23,078 nucleotides of DNA from a virus: positions 1 to 23,078 of the IMG/VR virus record IMGVR_UViG_3300037584_004104, one strand, 5' to 3'. The notes beneath the pieces are model-generated. The model searched no databases, was not told the DNA's origin, and saw nothing but the letters and a program-made list of their open reading frames with translations. Positions within the stretch are counted from its first letter, which is position 1, and each line of letters begins with the position of its first letter. This document shows positions 2,871 to 23,078 of the stretch, one piece after another. The position numbers and the translations under genes were made by a program.

Positions 2871-4409
2871 ATGGGTATTCGGACTCGCCTCATGGGCTTT
2901 TTGGGTTTTGGCAATCCAAAGCCAATGCGTCGTGCATATAACGGTGCGATTGTTTCTCGTTTGACTTCTGACTGGATGACAAGCCAGTCAAGCGCTGACG
3001 CAGAGATCAAAGGCAATTTGCGGCGTTTGCGCGATCGTTCCCGCGAGATGGTGCGGAACAATCCATACGCAAGGCAAGCAAAGCGAACTACGCAGATCAA
3101 CGTTGTCGGGAGTGGGATCAAGCTTCAGTCACAGGTGCTGCAGCTGCGCGGCAACAAGCGAGATAACAGAATCAATCAAGCGATTGAGTCGAAGTGGAAA
3201 GAATGGTCACAGGCCGATAATTGTGACTGCGCTGGCAAGAATAATTTTCAAGAGTTTGAGTGGCTTGCCGCTGGCGCGATGTGTGAGTCGGGCGAGGCAA
3301 TTTTCAGGGTCGTAAGGCGCACTTTTGGCGAGTCAAAGATTCCGATTGCACTGCAGATGCTTGAAAGCGATCTGCTTGACGAGGACTACAGCGGTCCAAA
3401 GCTGAATGCAGCAAATGAATGGAGAAATGGCGTTGAGGTCAATGAATGGGGGCGCCCTGTTCGTTACGCCATTCTCACCAGGCATCCTGGCGACAATTTT
3501 GTTGGCGGTCATCCATCAGCAGGCGTAAAGCACCTGTTTTTGCCTGCAGAGGACATTATTCATCTGTTTATGCCGGAGCGCCCTGGCCAGAACAGAGGTG
3601 TGCCTTGGTTCCATAGCGTGATGGCTGATGTACATCAGCTTCAGGGCTACGAAGAAGCTGCAGTGATTCGTGCTCGTGCTGGCGCGAGCATTATGGGCTT
3701 CATCACCAACAACGAAGGTGAGCTGATTGGTGATGATGTAGAGAACAGTCAAAGAATCAGTGAGTTTGAGCCTGGCACTTTCAAGTATTTGAGTCCAGGC
3801 GAGTCTGTCTCTGTTCCCGACATCGACTCACCGGATCAGCAGTTTGAAATGTTCGTCAAGAACAAGATTCGCCGGTTTGCGTCAGGCTTTGGTTGCTCTT
3901 ATGAGACACTATCTCGTGACTTCAGCGACACCAACTACAGCAGCAGCAGGCTGAGCCTGCTCGAGGACCGCGAGCACTGGAGGGTTGTACAGAAGTATCT
4001 GATCGATAGTCTCCATAAGCGCGTTTTCAAGGAATGGTTAAATCTGGCTGTGTTGTCTGGTGAGCTTGCATTTGCCGATTATGAGCTTCGTCCTGAGAGG
4101 TACAACAAAGCCAAATGGATGCCTAGGGGTTGGAGCTGGGTTGACCCACTTAAGGAGGTCAAGGCTTTCCGCGAGGCAGAGCAAGCTGGATATCTGAGCA
4201 AGGCTGACGTTATTTCGTCTTATTCCGGCGGCGACTATGACGAGACCATCAGCGCTCTGGCAAGGGAGCAACAGTTCGCTGCTGATGCAGGTATCCAGCT
4301 GGATAAGGATTTGGATTTGACCGACGAAGGCACACAGCTTGAGTTGCTTGAATCACCACAGGCTCAGCCCACTCGCAAACGGAGTAATGGCAAACGTAAA
4401 CGGAGTTGA
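2871..4409 (+). CDS. Portal protein, lambda gpB family
   Basis: Forms the dodecameric ring at one capsid vertex through which DNA enters and leaves; 512 aa, near the usual length for this family. Typical family segments are visible: RSREMVRNNPYARQA at residues 56-70 followed by INVVGSGIKLQ, then the central stretch from about 225 to 285 (EDIIHLFMPERPGQNRGVPW, then VHQLQGYEEAAVIRARAGAS), and YSSSRLSLLEDREHWRVVQ near 355-375. The C-terminus is basic (RKRSNGKRKRS). The start ATG is two bases after the upstream stop and has no evident Shine-Dalgarno sequence. The gene overlaps the protease-capsid gene by about 23 bases. The overlap and order (terminase, gpW, portal, protease) are those of a standard lambda-type packaging and head module. 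Confidence 0.95.
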   Translation: MGIRTRLMGFLGFGNPKPMRRAYNGAIVSRLTSDWMTSQSSADAEIKGNLRRLRDRSREMVRNNPYARQAKRTTQINVVGSGIKLQSQVLQLRGNKRDNRINQAIESKWKEWSQADNCDCAGKNNFQEFEWLAAGAMCESGEAIFRVVRRTFGESKIPIALQMLESDLLDEDYSGPKLNAANEWRNGVEVNEWGRPVRYAILTRHPGDNFVGGHPSAGVKHLFLPAEDIIHLFMPERPGQNRGVPWFHSVMADVHQLQGYEEAAVIRARAGASIMGFITNNEGELIGDDVENSQRISEFEPGTFKYLSPGESVSVPDIDSPDQQFEMFVKNKIRRFASGFGCSYETLSRDFSDTNYSSSRLSLLEDREHWRVVQKYLIDSLHKRVFKEWLNLAVLSGELAFADYELRPERYNKAKWMPRGWSWVDPLKEVKAFREAEQAGYLSKADVISSYSGGDYDETISALAREQQFAADAGIQLDKDLDLTDEGTQLELLESPQAQPTRKRSNGKRKRS

Positions 4410-7137
4410 GATTGACCTTATGCCTACAGCAGGCATGAGAGAAGAGGCTCAGCGTTACCGGGACTGGAAGTCTGATGGCGAGGGTGGCGGCACTGATGTT
4501 GCCCGGACCAGAGCGAGTCAGATACTGAGTGGCAACGAGCTGAGTCCAGGCACTGTCATCACAATGTCAGCTTGGTTTGCGAGGCACGAGGTAGACAAGA
4601 GAGCCGAGGGGTTTAGGCCAGGGGAAGATGGTTATCCAAGCAATGGGCGTGTCGCATGGGCTGCATGGGGTGGTGATGCAGGCAAATCTTGGTCTGATGC
4701 GCGGTCAAAACGAATCAAAGCCGCTCAAGAGCGCTCCGAAGTCATGGAAATGGAGCGTCCTTATCCCAATGAACACGCAGCAAGGATTGTTGATCCAGGC
4801 AAATTTGAACGATTTAGGCGCTCTAATGACCGTGGAGGGGCTGGAGTTGACTTCATTTTTGGGATCATCGACGATGATGATCCTCTTGAGTTGCAGTCGA
4901 TAAGATTCAAGGTGAGTCGTTATACGGCTAGTGAAGCTAGACAATGGCTTCGCGATAATGAATACGAACCTCTTGAGTTCGAGCCCGCCACCAACGAGAA
5001 GGCTATGGAACCTGAAACTCAACGAGCAGCACCAGATGCTTTAAGTGTGGGGGACTTTGTCTCCTGGAACAGCTCTGGTGGACGTGCTCGTGGATTGATC
5101 GAGCAAATCGAGCGAGACGGGACTATCGATGTTCCCGACTCCAGCTTCACTATCACTGGCACTGCTGATGATCCAGCAGCTCTGATTTGCCTCTATCGCG
5201 ACGGCGAAAAGACTGACACTCGTGTCGGTCACAAATTCAGCACGTTGACGAAGATTGCCCCAATCAGAGAGGCAGAGGTTGAGGAAGCCTCTAAGCGCAC
5301 AAAGCTTGGCGAGCCACTCAGCCGCACCGAAGCTTCTGTTATCAGGAGCCTTCCTGGCGAGGATCGGAGCTTTGAGTTCCCGTTCAGCTCCGAGTATCCA
5401 GTCAAAAGATACTTCGGTGACGAAGTATTGAGCCATGAGGCCGGTGCGCCGGACTTTATGCGCTTGAACGATGGTGCGCCGTTCCTGTTCAACCATGATC
5501 CGAACAAAGTTTTGGGCGTAGTTGAGCGTGCGTATCTCGATGAGGAAGAAAAGCGTGCTTACGCAAAAATCCGTTTCTCACGCTCTGATTTCGCCAAGCA
5601 GTACTTAGATGACGTTAAAGACGGCATCTTGCGCGGTATTTCGTTCGGCTATCAAATCGATGATGCCGAGGAAAAAGAAGAAGGTCTGCTTGCAACACGT
5701 TGGTCGGTGCATGAATTGAGCCTTGTTTCGATTCCAGCTGACCCCACAATTGGAATCGGACGGTCACTTCTTTCGCCAGATCCTGCTATGCCTGAATCTT
5801 CTCAACCTGAAGCTACTACTATTACGAATGAAGCTCCTGTTGAAGAACAGGAAACTCGTTCAGCGGTCACGACCGCATCTACACCCACTCCTGTTATGGA
5901 AGATCAAGCTCCAAACCTGGAGGTGATCCGGTCGGAGGCTAAGAAGGCCGAAAAAGACCGCGTCGCCGCCATCAGCGCCCTCGGTGCTCAGCACCGTATG
6001 GCAGACCTGGCACAAGAATTGATCGATGGAGATAACTCCATTGATGAGGCTCGTGCTGCAATCCTCGAAAAAATCGGAACCTCTCAAGTGGAACAGCCTA
6101 TCCGTTCTACCGATGTCACCTCTAACGACCTCGGTCTTTCCAAGCAGGAGACTAAGCGTTTCAGCTTCCTCCGTGCCCTCAACTATCTGGCCAGCCCTGG
6201 CGATGCAAGCGCACGCCGTGAAGCTGAGTTCGAGATTGAAGTTGGCATTGAGGCCGCTAAAAAGTACGACCGTTCTTCCAACGGCATCGTGGTTCCCAAC
6301 GAGGTGCTGCGCCGCGACTTGACTGTCGGCACTGCAACTGCTGGCGGCAACCTTGTAGATGATGTTCTGCTTTCTGGCAGCTTCATCGACCTGCTCCGCA
6401 ACAAGCTTGCACTGGCTGGTGCAGGCATGACCACGCTGAGCGGAATCAACGGCAACATCTCAATCCCCAAGCAGTCGGCAAGCGCCACCGCTTACTGGGT
6501 TGGAGAGTCAGGCTCACCTACCGAGTCACAGCAGACCATCGAGCAGGTGAACCTTTCACCCAAGACTTGTGGTGCTTTTGTTGATTACTCACGCAAGTTG
6601 CTGCTGCAGTCCAGCATTGACGTTGAGCAGATGGTCCGTGACGACCTAGCTCAAGTTCTGGCTCTTGAGCTGGATCGCGTTGGCCTAAATGGCTCTGGTT
6701 CTTCCAACCAGCCTCTCGGCATCATCAACACCACAGGCATCGGCACTCAGTCGCTGAGCACATTCGGAACCTTCGCCGAGTACATCGGAATGGAGACCGA
6801 CGTTGCTACTGCTAACGCTGATGCTGGCGCTTTGCGTTACATCATCAACGCAGCTGCTCGCGGCGCTCTGAAGAGCACCGAGAAGGCAAGTGGCACCGCT
6901 CAGTTCGTTTACGAAAACGACGAGATCAACGGCTACCCCGTAACCGTCTCCAACCAGCTCGAAAACAACGACGCGCTGTTCGGCGACTTCTCGCAGCTGA
7001 TCATGGCGATGTGGTCCGGCTTGGATCTCACTGTTGATCCGTTCGCTGGCGCTACTTCCGGCACTGTCCGCATCATTGCTCTGCAAGATGTTGACTTCGC
7101 CGTCAAGCAGCCTGGCGCATTCTGCTACGCCACCTGA
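4387..7137 (+). CDS. Multi-module prohead protease-major capsid protein fusion
   Basis: 916 aa read from the ATG at 4387; ATG 4420 is an alternative. Modules in order: residues ~16-118, a domain with MREEAQRYRDW, SAWFARHEVDK and PGEDGYPSNGRVAWAAWGG; ~124-205, a PYPNEHAARI ... QSIRF ... SEARQWL domain; ~220-292, a compact tudor-like beta domain (GDFVSWNSSGGRARG ... VGHKFSTL); ~319-460, an HK97-type (S78) prohead protease with likely catalytic His370 (FLFNHDP) and Ser419 (GISFGY) and the HELSLVSIPADP end motif; ~465-510, an acidic Pro/Thr/Glu linker; ~510-565, a helical delta/scaffold-like segment; ~580-916, an HK97-fold capsid protein (GGNLVDD, ISIPKQSASATAYWVGESG, LSPKTCGAFVDYSRKLL). The protease would remove the delta region as the shell matures. 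No stop or frameshift separates the two halves. Codon use becomes markedly C-ending in the capsid half. Confidence 0.93.
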   Translation: MANVNGVEIDLMPTAGMREEAQRYRDWKSDGEGGGTDVARTRASQILSGNELSPGTVITMSAWFARHEVDKRAEGFRPGEDGYPSNGRVAWAAWGGDAGKSWSDARSKRIKAAQERSEVMEMERPYPNEHAARIVDPGKFERFRRSNDRGGAGVDFIFGIIDDDDPLELQSIRFKVSRYTASEARQWLRDNEYEPLEFEPATNEKAMEPETQRAAPDALSVGDFVSWNSSGGRARGLIEQIERDGTIDVPDSSFTITGTADDPAALICLYRDGEKTDTRVGHKFSTLTKIAPIREAEVEEASKRTKLGEPLSRTEASVIRSLPGEDRSFEFPFSSEYPVKRYFGDEVLSHEAGAPDFMRLNDGAPFLFNHDPNKVLGVVERAYLDEEEKRAYAKIRFSRSDFAKQYLDDVKDGILRGISFGYQIDDAEEKEEGLLATRWSVHELSLVSIPADPTIGIGRSLLSPDPAMPESSQPEATTITNEAPVEEQETRSAVTTASTPTPVMEDQAPNLEVIRSEAKKAEKDRVAAISALGAQHRMADLAQELIDGDNSIDEARAAILEKIGTSQVEQPIRSTDVTSNDLGLSKQETKRFSFLRALNYLASPGDASARREAEFEIEVGIEAAKKYDRSSNGIVVPNEVLRRDLTVGTATAGGNLVDDVLLSGSFIDLLRNKLALAGAGMTTLSGINGNISIPKQSASATAYWVGESGSPTESQQTIEQVNLSPKTCGAFVDYSRKLLLQSSIDVEQMVRDDLAQVLALELDRVGLNGSGSSNQPLGIINTTGIGTQSLSTFGTFAEYIGMETDVATANADAGALRYIINAAARGALKSTEKASGTAQFVYENDEINGYPVTVSNQLENNDALFGDFSQLIMAMWSGLDLTVDPFAGATSGTVRIIALQDVDFAVKQPGAFCYAT

Positions 7138-21231: not shown

Positions 21232-21267
21232 GGCAGGGCTAAAATCTGGTTACTGCACGGCTGAGCT

Positions 21268-23078
21268 ATGGCTGACGTCAAAATCACAGACCTAGCCGCG
21301 TACAGCGTGCCAACAAGCACTGACGTTTTAGCGGTAGTTGACGTAGGCAGTGACCTAACCAAAAAAGTCAGCATTGCTGACCTGATGGAGAATGCAGGCA
21401 CTGGAACGGCGGCGGCTCCTGGCATTTCTTTTGATGGTGACAACGACACTGGTGTTTACCACCCAGCAAATAATCAGGTTGCTTTAACGGCTGGTGGGAC
21501 GCAGGCGCTGTTAGCAGAAAGCACTGGGATCACCATTCCGGGCAACCTAACGGTGTCTGGAACGACCACGACGATTGATACAACGACGCTGGTTGTTGAA
21601 GACAAGAACATTGAGATTGGCAAGGTCAGCACGCCGAGTGACACGACTGCTGATGGCGGCGGAATCACGCTGAAGGGTGCAAGCGATAAAACAATTACTT
21701 GGGTGAACAGCACTGATTGCTGGACGTTTAATCAGTCAGTGGACGTCGGCGGCAACGTTCGAATCGACAGTACGGGCAAATTGGGTGTGGGGACGGCGAG
21801 CCCTCAAGATTTGCTCCACCTTTCTGGCACAGTGCCAGACATTAGGTACACCGACACAACTGGCGATGAGTACAAAGTTGGAAATAATAATGGAGTTTTT
21901 CGCGTCTATAACGTAACGGATGCAAATACTCCATTTGTGATAAACGGTGCGGGCAAAGTTGGTGTTGGAACGACAAGCCCAGTATTTAAGTTTCACGCTA
22001 ATGAAACAAGCGGTTCATCTATTGCTGGGTTGTTTCAGACAAATCAAACGGAGTCTTTTATCTCTTTTGCAGCAAGCGGGACCACAGCCACTTCAACTGT
22101 CCGCTTTGGCGCAAATGGAGACAACTTAATTGCATTCGTGAACGGCGGTGAGCGCCTACGAATCGACAGCTCAGGCCGAGTTGGAATTGGAACGTCGACT
22201 GTCGGAGCTACCTTGCATCTAAACAATGCTACGGAAGGCGATGTCTATTTAAAAGCTAACTCAGGCGACGGCGGAGCTGATCGAGGGTTAGAAATTAAAT
22301 CAGGCACCGGAGCTTTTACTGGATCCAAGCATATCTTTGACGCAAAGTCGTCAGGCGGCCAGCTTGAATTTAGGACTGCAAGCTCTCCAGCATTATTTAT
22401 TAACCAGACACAGCAAGTAGGCATTGGCACGACGTCGCCTTTGTCAAAACTTAACATCAAGGGAACACAAGGAAATTGGCGTGTCGACCCTGATTCTGTA
22501 TCTGGAGAAATCCAAGTTCTTTCCACTAACACAGCTAATTCAGGTTTCATAAATTATAGATTACGCGCTAATGATAGTATTTTTGAAAATGGCGGCATCG
22601 AGCGCCTACGCATCAACAGCTCGGGCAATGTTGGGATAGGCACCTCAGCGCCCTTCGACACTTTGCAGGTAAAAACAGGAGCTAACGCAAACTTCCTGTT
22701 TAGCACTGCTTCTACTGAGCCAAGCCTTGAAATTTTTAATGATGCAGGAAACACAAATGTTCCATTAAACATAAGAGCGTCGGAATACAAATTTAAAATT
22801 CAAGGCACCGAAAAAGTACGAATCGACAGCTCGGGCAGGTTGTTAATAAACAATACTACTGCAGGCGATAATCATCCACTTCAAGTTACGGCTTCTAGTA
22901 CAAGTAATGCTATTGCAATTATTGGCAGAGCGGCAGATGATATTGGTTCGCTGACTTTTTACGAAAATGATAGAAGCACAAATCTTGGTGAGATTCAATA
23001 TCGCCAAGATCACGTTAATTTTAGACACCGTGTAGGCGACATTCGTTTTGCAACTGGTGGTGTAACTGAGCGCATGCG
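21268..23078 (+). CDS. Long repetitive tail fibre protein, 3' end outside window
   Basis: The frame starting at ATG 21268 stays open to the right edge (603 complete codons), so the C-terminus is missing. Residues 1-42 (MADVKITDLAAYSVPTSTDV ... TKKVSIADLM) match the N-terminal module of the preceding fibre. Then come GISFDGDNDTGVYHPANNQV and a conserved block at ~98-160 (TTTIDTTTLVVEDKNIEIGK ... GGGITLKGASDKTITWVNST) familiar from cyanophage and other aquatic phage structural proteins. After that, at least six beta repeats of the form (ERLRIDSSG)xVGIGTxSP have turn motifs near residues 171, 230, 304, 383, 454 and 524. A further repeat (TERM) begins at the edge. This looks like the shaft of a trimeric fibre, probably for host binding. 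It may end in a chaperone or receptor domain beyond the window. Confidence 0.85.
   Translation, partial: MADVKITDLAAYSVPTSTDVLAVVDVGSDLTKKVSIADLMENAGTGTAAAPGISFDGDNDTGVYHPANNQVALTAGGTQALLAESTGITIPGNLTVSGTTTTIDTTTLVVEDKNIEIGKVSTPSDTTADGGGITLKGASDKTITWVNSTDCWTFNQSVDVGGNVRIDSTGKLGVGTASPQDLLHLSGTVPDIRYTDTTGDEYKVGNNNGVFRVYNVTDANTPFVINGAGKVGVGTTSPVFKFHANETSGSSIAGLFQTNQTESFISFAASGTTATSTVRFGANGDNLIAFVNGGERLRIDSSGRVGIGTSTVGATLHLNNATEGDVYLKANSGDGGADRGLEIKSGTGAFTGSKHIFDAKSSGGQLEFRTASSPALFINQTQQVGIGTTSPLSKLNIKGTQGNWRVDPDSVSGEIQVLSTNTANSGFINYRLRANDSIFENGGIERLRINSSGNVGIGTSAPFDTLQVKTGANANFLFSTASTEPSLEIFNDAGNTNVPLNIRASEYKFKIQGTEKVRIDSSGRLLINNTTAGDNHPLQVTASSTSNAIAIIGRAADDIGSLTFYENDRSTNLGEIQYRQDHVNFRHRVGDIRFATGGVTERM
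21760..23078 (+). repeat. Dispersed DNA repeats inside the fibre gene
   Basis: Near-identical 18-base units, CGAATCGACAGCTCGGGC and variants, occur at 21760-21777, 22159-22176, 22609-22626 and 22819-22836, each encoding RI(D/N)S(S/T)G. Several are preceded by GAGCGCCTA (22150, 22600) and followed by a GTTGGxATxGGxAC tract encoding VGIGT. Related VGIGT/VGVGT units without the first half occur near 21955 and 22414. A partial copy (GAGCGCATGCG) starts at the right edge. They are in frame and spaced 210-450 bases apart, so they are peptide-coding repeats, not CRISPR. Confidence 0.8.

Follow-up and report, generated by a model that had tools for sequence, protein, structure and literature searches.

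A single gene of a marine phage, contained in a 23-kb virus record (the window, 23,078 nucleotides), joins in one frame three small N-terminal modules (M1 to M3) and an S78 prohead protease to an HK97 capsid domain, with a disordered linker and a delta-like helical region in between, and probably yields two nested products. From the conservation of the protease/delta junction we infer that an internal translation start is in use there. ATG 4387 would give rise to a minor 100-kDa protein that spans the whole frame, from the modules to the capsid domain, and Met504 (5896) to a major 44-kDa delta-capsid protein with a layout like that of HK97 gp5. Both products would co-assemble via their common delta-capsid part, and a limited number of proteases would be present per prohead, tethered to the shell. 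The protease would then remove everything upstream of about residues 640-653, leaving a shell protein of 264-277 residues, and the modules would be accessory cassettes on the protease arm, exposed inside the prohead.

A protease on every shell subunit is an assembly problem, with excess protease and too little space. A conserved internal start, if real, would settle this within a single gene and account for the viability of such fusions across many phage lineages. If two products are made, database entries named major capsid protein need rereading, as their lengths, structure models and proteomic searches presume one product. The coordinates of all features are collected in Table 1.

Table 1. 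Features of the fusion gene and of its proposed products (positions in the window; residues of the full-length product).
Feature	Positions	Strand	Basis or remark
Module-protease-delta-capsid fusion, full-length product	4387..7137	+	916 aa, 99.7 kDa
M1, residues 1-118	4387..4740	+	all-helical; phrog_2859 segment, no Pfam family
M2, residues 119-208	4741..5010	+	alpha/beta with motif RPYPNEHAAR; in this analysis seen only in protease-capsid fusions
M3, residues 213-297	5020..5277	+	beta-barrel, Hva1_TUDOR-like; present once or twice in relatives
Peptidase S78 prohead protease domain, residues 326-462	5362..5772	+	Pfam, AlphaFold, alignment
Predicted catalytic His370 codon	5494..5496	+	invariant in relatives
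Predicted catalytic Ser419 codon	5641..5643	+	invariant in relatives
Disordered protease/delta linker, residues 463-503	5773..5895	+	pLDDT 33-39
Met468, second possible start	5788..5790	+	AAGGAG at 6 nt in close relatives; degenerate in the window
Synonymous-variation trough at proposed internal start, residues 496-508	5869..5907	+	codon comparison
Met504, proposed internal translation start of short delta-capsid form	5896..5898	+	sequence comparison
Proposed short product, delta and capsid, residues 504-916	5896..7137	+	inferred; 413 aa, 43.9 kDa
Delta-like helical region, residues 505-600	5899..6186	+	AlphaFold helices
Mature HK97-fold shell protein, residues 653-916	6343..7134	+	aligned with chain modelled in PDB 8GTA

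The fused frame and its domains

The frame runs from ATG 4387 to the stop codon at 7135-7137 without an internal stop or frameshift in the window sequence, which agrees with the uninterrupted fusion claimed in an earlier note on this DNA. Upstream of it lie the genes for terminase, head-tail joining and portal; downstream come head-tail genes and lambda-like tail genes. Complete copies of the fused frame are present at 60 loci, namely the window copy and 59 related viral contigs, and the frame is also intact in the isolates S-CBS1, S-CBS3, CRP-811 and CRP-821. The chance that errors of sequencing or assembly created the fusion, a concern which the earlier note had raised and which the split frame of the roseophage record CRP-823 (broken upstream of the protease) might encourage, is therefore vanishingly small. 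At the right end of the window, about 1.8 kb (21232-23078) contains short frames only and no recognised gene; the sole frame tested there, 22245-22550 on the minus strand, had no PHROG match.

The tudor-like, protease, delta-like and capsid domains originally read from the sequence all find support in Pfam matches or AlphaFold models. The models fold the three modules as helical, alpha/beta and beta-barrel, respectively, and show the protease domain with confidence, then a disordered linker (about 458-508), helices and the capsid fold. Peptidase_S78 (PF04586) matches residues 351-453 with 42.1 bits (gathering score 21; 1.3e-10). His370 and Ser419, already suspected of forming the catalytic pair, show no variation among 60 close relatives or among 41 aligned diverse fusions, down to about 33% identity, and together with the profile match this places the domain in the S78 family, with predicted catalytic activity.

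The capsid domain belongs to the HK97 fold (Phage_capsid, PF05065, residues 653-915, 151 bits, 5.9e-44), and among PDB structures its model is closest to 8GTA (2.6e-22), followed by the HK97 and GTA capsids. Entry 8GTA is the shell of phage R4C, resolved at 3.63 A, with T=7 geometry and 415 copies; its deposited chain covers residues 362-629 of the 629-aa R4C product, and the start of that chain aligns with window residue 653. Since the solved shell of this relative begins at the aligned residue, the published structure supports a mature boundary near 653, where the ordered shell would start, with cleavage there or somewhat upstream. Trimming probably occurs at about 640-653, and not at 560-600, where the capsid N-terminus had been expected. 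The R4C structure paper does not discuss the protease.

Turnover of the N-terminal modules

Residues 1-312 are modelled with a mean pLDDT of 85.7 (AlphaFold), and the modules are thus confidently predicted. Hva1_TUDOR (PF11160; gathering score 24.1) scores 25.8 bits at residues 222-267 (1.1e-5) when the region is searched alone and 21.7 bits in a whole-protein search, and structural tudor/PWWP matches are weak. PDB searches by sequence with M1 and with modules 1-3 returned no credible match, and a Foldseek search of modules 1-3 against the PDB found none at E<=0.001, only weak tudor/PWWP/KOW-type matches.

According to per-module profiles, the protease-delta-capsid core is constant, and it is preceded by M1-M2-M3, M1-M3, M1-M3-M3, M1-M2, M1-M3-M2, M2-M3 or no module; the fusion relatives S-LBS1, VP882, RcRhea and R4C belong to the last kind. 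Judged from these arrangements, the modules are swappable cassettes, which relatives have gained, lost, duplicated and reordered. Further domains occur as well, including a cysteine-rich domain inserted in L069 and L075 and a DUF5824-like domain in CRP-821. The cysteine-rich insert (CSNCAFYAGPRACEIVSGDIAPEG) lies between M1 and M2 and resembles a HiPIP-like module of the phiPsal1 and DSL-LC01 head proteins. The capsid-gene products of L019 and L049 carry two adjoining tudor-like modules, an apparent duplication. In CRP-823 (L088:980-3908) and in L112 (3932-6211) the modules occupy a separate upstream frame and the protease-capsid frame is intact, which reflects either a natural split or a sequence error. 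Apart from these few cases the modules are fused in most relatives found, hence the suggestion that they might always be separate genes elsewhere does not hold.

M1 is also found on other proteases, N-terminally on one of the XkdF type (DC31) and close to the N-terminus of the stand-alone S78 protease of phiPsal1. A DUF2213-type protein (Vibrio 1.122) likewise carries it close to the N-terminus, haloviral portals (HATV-3, HRTV-4) carry it C-terminally, and it forms small single-domain proteins in phages and on alphaproteobacterial chromosomes. In total, at least 593 stretches in viral contigs match M1. In a set of 65 M1-bearing viral proteins, which was picked by M1 and is silent on how often fusions lack it, Pfam identified S78 domains in 40, capsid domains in 38, DUF5824 in 18 and tudor in 12, as well as portal families in 8 and 3. 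M1 is thus joined mostly to prohead-interior proteins, usually the protease. Stand-alone M1 proteins of roughly 100-135 aa were observed in many Rhizobiales, Henriciella, Sphingomonas and Verrucomicrobia (L114-L177; e.g. L135:3986-4306, L158:3977-4378), for which no Pfam family was found and whose gene neighbours revealed no common function.

In pairwise comparisons, M1 identity follows that of the protease more closely than that of the capsid (rho 0.86 versus 0.71; the pairs are not independent), a correlation that is suggestive only with regard to module exchange. The earlier note had considered that the modules might act as an internal scaffold or bind cargo or DNA. Being tethered to the shell protein they would sit inside the prohead, as a scaffold should; however, S-LBS1 (46.5% identical over the protease-capsid part), R4C, RcRhea and VP882 form heads without them, and module identity, order and number differ even between close relatives. 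Because capsid relatives lack the modules and stand-alone proteases and portals carry them elsewhere, the modules look like accessories of the protease arm, and an obligatory scaffold role is very improbable. The modules may serve as accessory cargo or as an assembly hub. A conjecture, doubtful as it stands, is that the nested cassette sets a dose: the internal start would determine the number of protease-module arms per head, the modules would be head cargo that the protease releases for delivery together with the DNA, and the cassettes would be recombined in front of proteases, portals and scaffolds. In any case, these domains recur on head-interior proteins as a set that is mostly unnamed, which makes their role worth pursuing.

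A start-like signal at the protease/delta junction

Across most of the wider family, an in-frame ATG lies at the protease/delta junction, downstream of a Shine-Dalgarno (SD) sequence at normal spacing, such as TAAGGAGG-CTACC-ATG in L178, AAGGAGG in L186 and L187, and CGGAGGACGCA-ATG in R4C, whose 629-aa precursor has an SD-led Met189. Dereplication below 70% identity left 34 fusions, and in 17 of them a junction ATG has an SD match of at least 5 nt, compared to 6.6 expected from synonymous codon shuffling (P 3e-8), although only the best among a few ATGs counts for each junction in this test, which makes an equal-window duplex test fairer; at other internal ATGs such matches occur in 18 of 616. 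In equal-sized windows, the duplex energy at the junction has a median of -5.95, and that of 358 control windows a median of -2.8 (P 6e-7); in 17/34 fusions the junction ranks first among the windows of its own gene (3.1 expected). The junction is often directly followed by start residues of the MSE, MTE or MSD type. Because the residues preceding the ATG vary (KETK, KVKI, KGEP, RGAE, SEDA) and the SD is kept, the signal looks to act at the nucleotide level. No report of an internal start in capsid-protease genes was found in a literature search confined largely to openly accessible papers. The papers on R4C, S-LBS1, CRP-822-type phages and Murka contain no protein-level data on the protease part, and a look for proteomic or ribosome-profiling data on the family found none.

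The conserved junction could instead mark a site at which the protease parts itself from the delta-capsid region, with no start codon involved. A cut there would be useful, and many relatives share a K-E-x-x-M pattern at the junction. Nevertheless, the residues before Met are not conserved, the SD is conserved in more than one reading phase, AAG and GAG codons are chosen above synonymous expectation, and neither the suppressed synonymous variation nor the restriction to ATG or GTG described below is explained by a cleavage site, which makes this reading improbable.

Within the branch of the window, which includes S-CBS1, S-CBS3 and S-LBS1, the junction SD is absent. In the window itself neither Met504 (duplex +3.0 kcal/mol) nor Met468 (+0.4) is preceded by an SD; in L020, L032, L033, L035, L036 and L071 an AAGGAG, decayed in the window, lies six bases upstream of Met468. 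Half of the window's other gene starts have a weak SD too, so its lack at Met504 is not decisive. Despite a linker that varies in length and sequence, the junction codon of this branch is ATG in 142 and GTG in 19 of 161 sequences (10 of them assigned by eye where the script gave none) and never any other codon. The argument from GTG is modest, as 3 of 19 always-Val columns, presumably counting the junction, are all GTG.

Synonymous variation has its gene-wide minimum at codons 497-507 in the window-type clade (observed/expected 0.14) and at codons 492-502 in a second clade (0.10), and amino-acid change at these minima is 1.5-1.7 times the average in both. The minima are unchanged after correction for amino-acid type; for comparison, synonymous variation at the true gene start of the window-type clade is 0.47 of expectation. 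The minimum fell at 484-506 in 109/200 and 49/200 half-samples of the two clades, with about 2.5% expected. Since the trough is broad (about 467-520) and this half-sample support is moderate, the case for an internal start is weaker in the window itself than in its SD-bearing relatives. RNA folding around Met504 is no more stable than in shuffled sequences (z -0.79). A further synonymous trough, at codons 559-569 (window 6058-6090) in both clades, coincides with above-average amino-acid change and is unexplained.

A possible, rather unlikely alternative is that only the full-length protein is made, that all subunits hold protease and modules inside, and that self-cleavage frees the shell protein, as is usually described for Gifsy-2. 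Fusions with about 300-400 pre-capsid residues exist, Gifsy-2 heads are T=7, and the window junction lacks an SD. Against this stand the SD enrichment and start-codon conservation in relatives, the synonymous trough in the window's own clade, and the space required. The lumen of a T=7 prohead measures about 30,000-45,000 nm3. Residues 1-652 of 415 full-length copies amount to 29.9 MDa, or about 36,000 nm3 to be fitted inside the shell, roughly the whole lumen, whereas 415 copies of the short form would need about 8,100 nm3. Together with the apparent accessory nature of the modules, these findings suggest that the original view, in which every shell copy carries modules and protease, is probably wrong. 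The earlier idea of a shorter capsid form stands, and cleavage would not be its sole route: the SD-led junction ATG in relatives and the kept ATG or GTG with low synonymous variation point to internal initiation as well.

Comparison with known systems

Protease-capsid fusions are already known, as the earlier note had stated, and are named in NCBIfam NF045541 (phrog_617, phrog_4523; R4C, the RcCronus group, VP882, Murka/FoX1, S-LBS1). These share with the window a single frame that runs from the S78-type protease through the linker and the delta-like helices to the HK97 capsid, the site after the portal gene, and the shell boundary that aligns in R4C. The NF045541 model scores 173 bits over residues 325-593 of the window product, below its cut-off of 525, thus the window gene appears to be of the same kind, with protease and capsid in one frame, and not a member of that model. 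Most described isolates of this kind lack the N-terminal modules, unlike the window; modules are present in the deposited Synechococcus phages S-CBS1 and S-CBS3. These and the CRP-822-type roseophages are cultured phages with module-bearing fusions annotated merely as major capsid protein, and their content differs from that of the window (M1 and M2 in S-CBS3; M1 and M3 in CRP-811; M1, the DUF5824-like module and M2 in CRP-821). What is further described here is the turnover of the cassettes and the nested-start reading.

The tripartite genes of Gifsy-2 and MD8 likewise combine protease, scaffold-like region and capsid, but their protease is ClpP-like, not S78, and M1 to M3 are missing. The Gifsy-2 gene is said to yield only a full-length product that cleaves itself. 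Its Met221 (L267:23131-23133), at the protease/scaffold junction, is preceded by AGGAG, a single weak case of a possible internal start.

In phage lambda, an internal in-frame start in the protease gene C yields the scaffold Nu3 alone, the two products are made in different amounts, and the capsid protein E is encoded by a separate gene. The mechanism proposed here would resemble lambda C/Nu3 extended to the capsid, with a short form like HK97 gp5; in contrast to lambda, the capsid domain would belong to both nested products.
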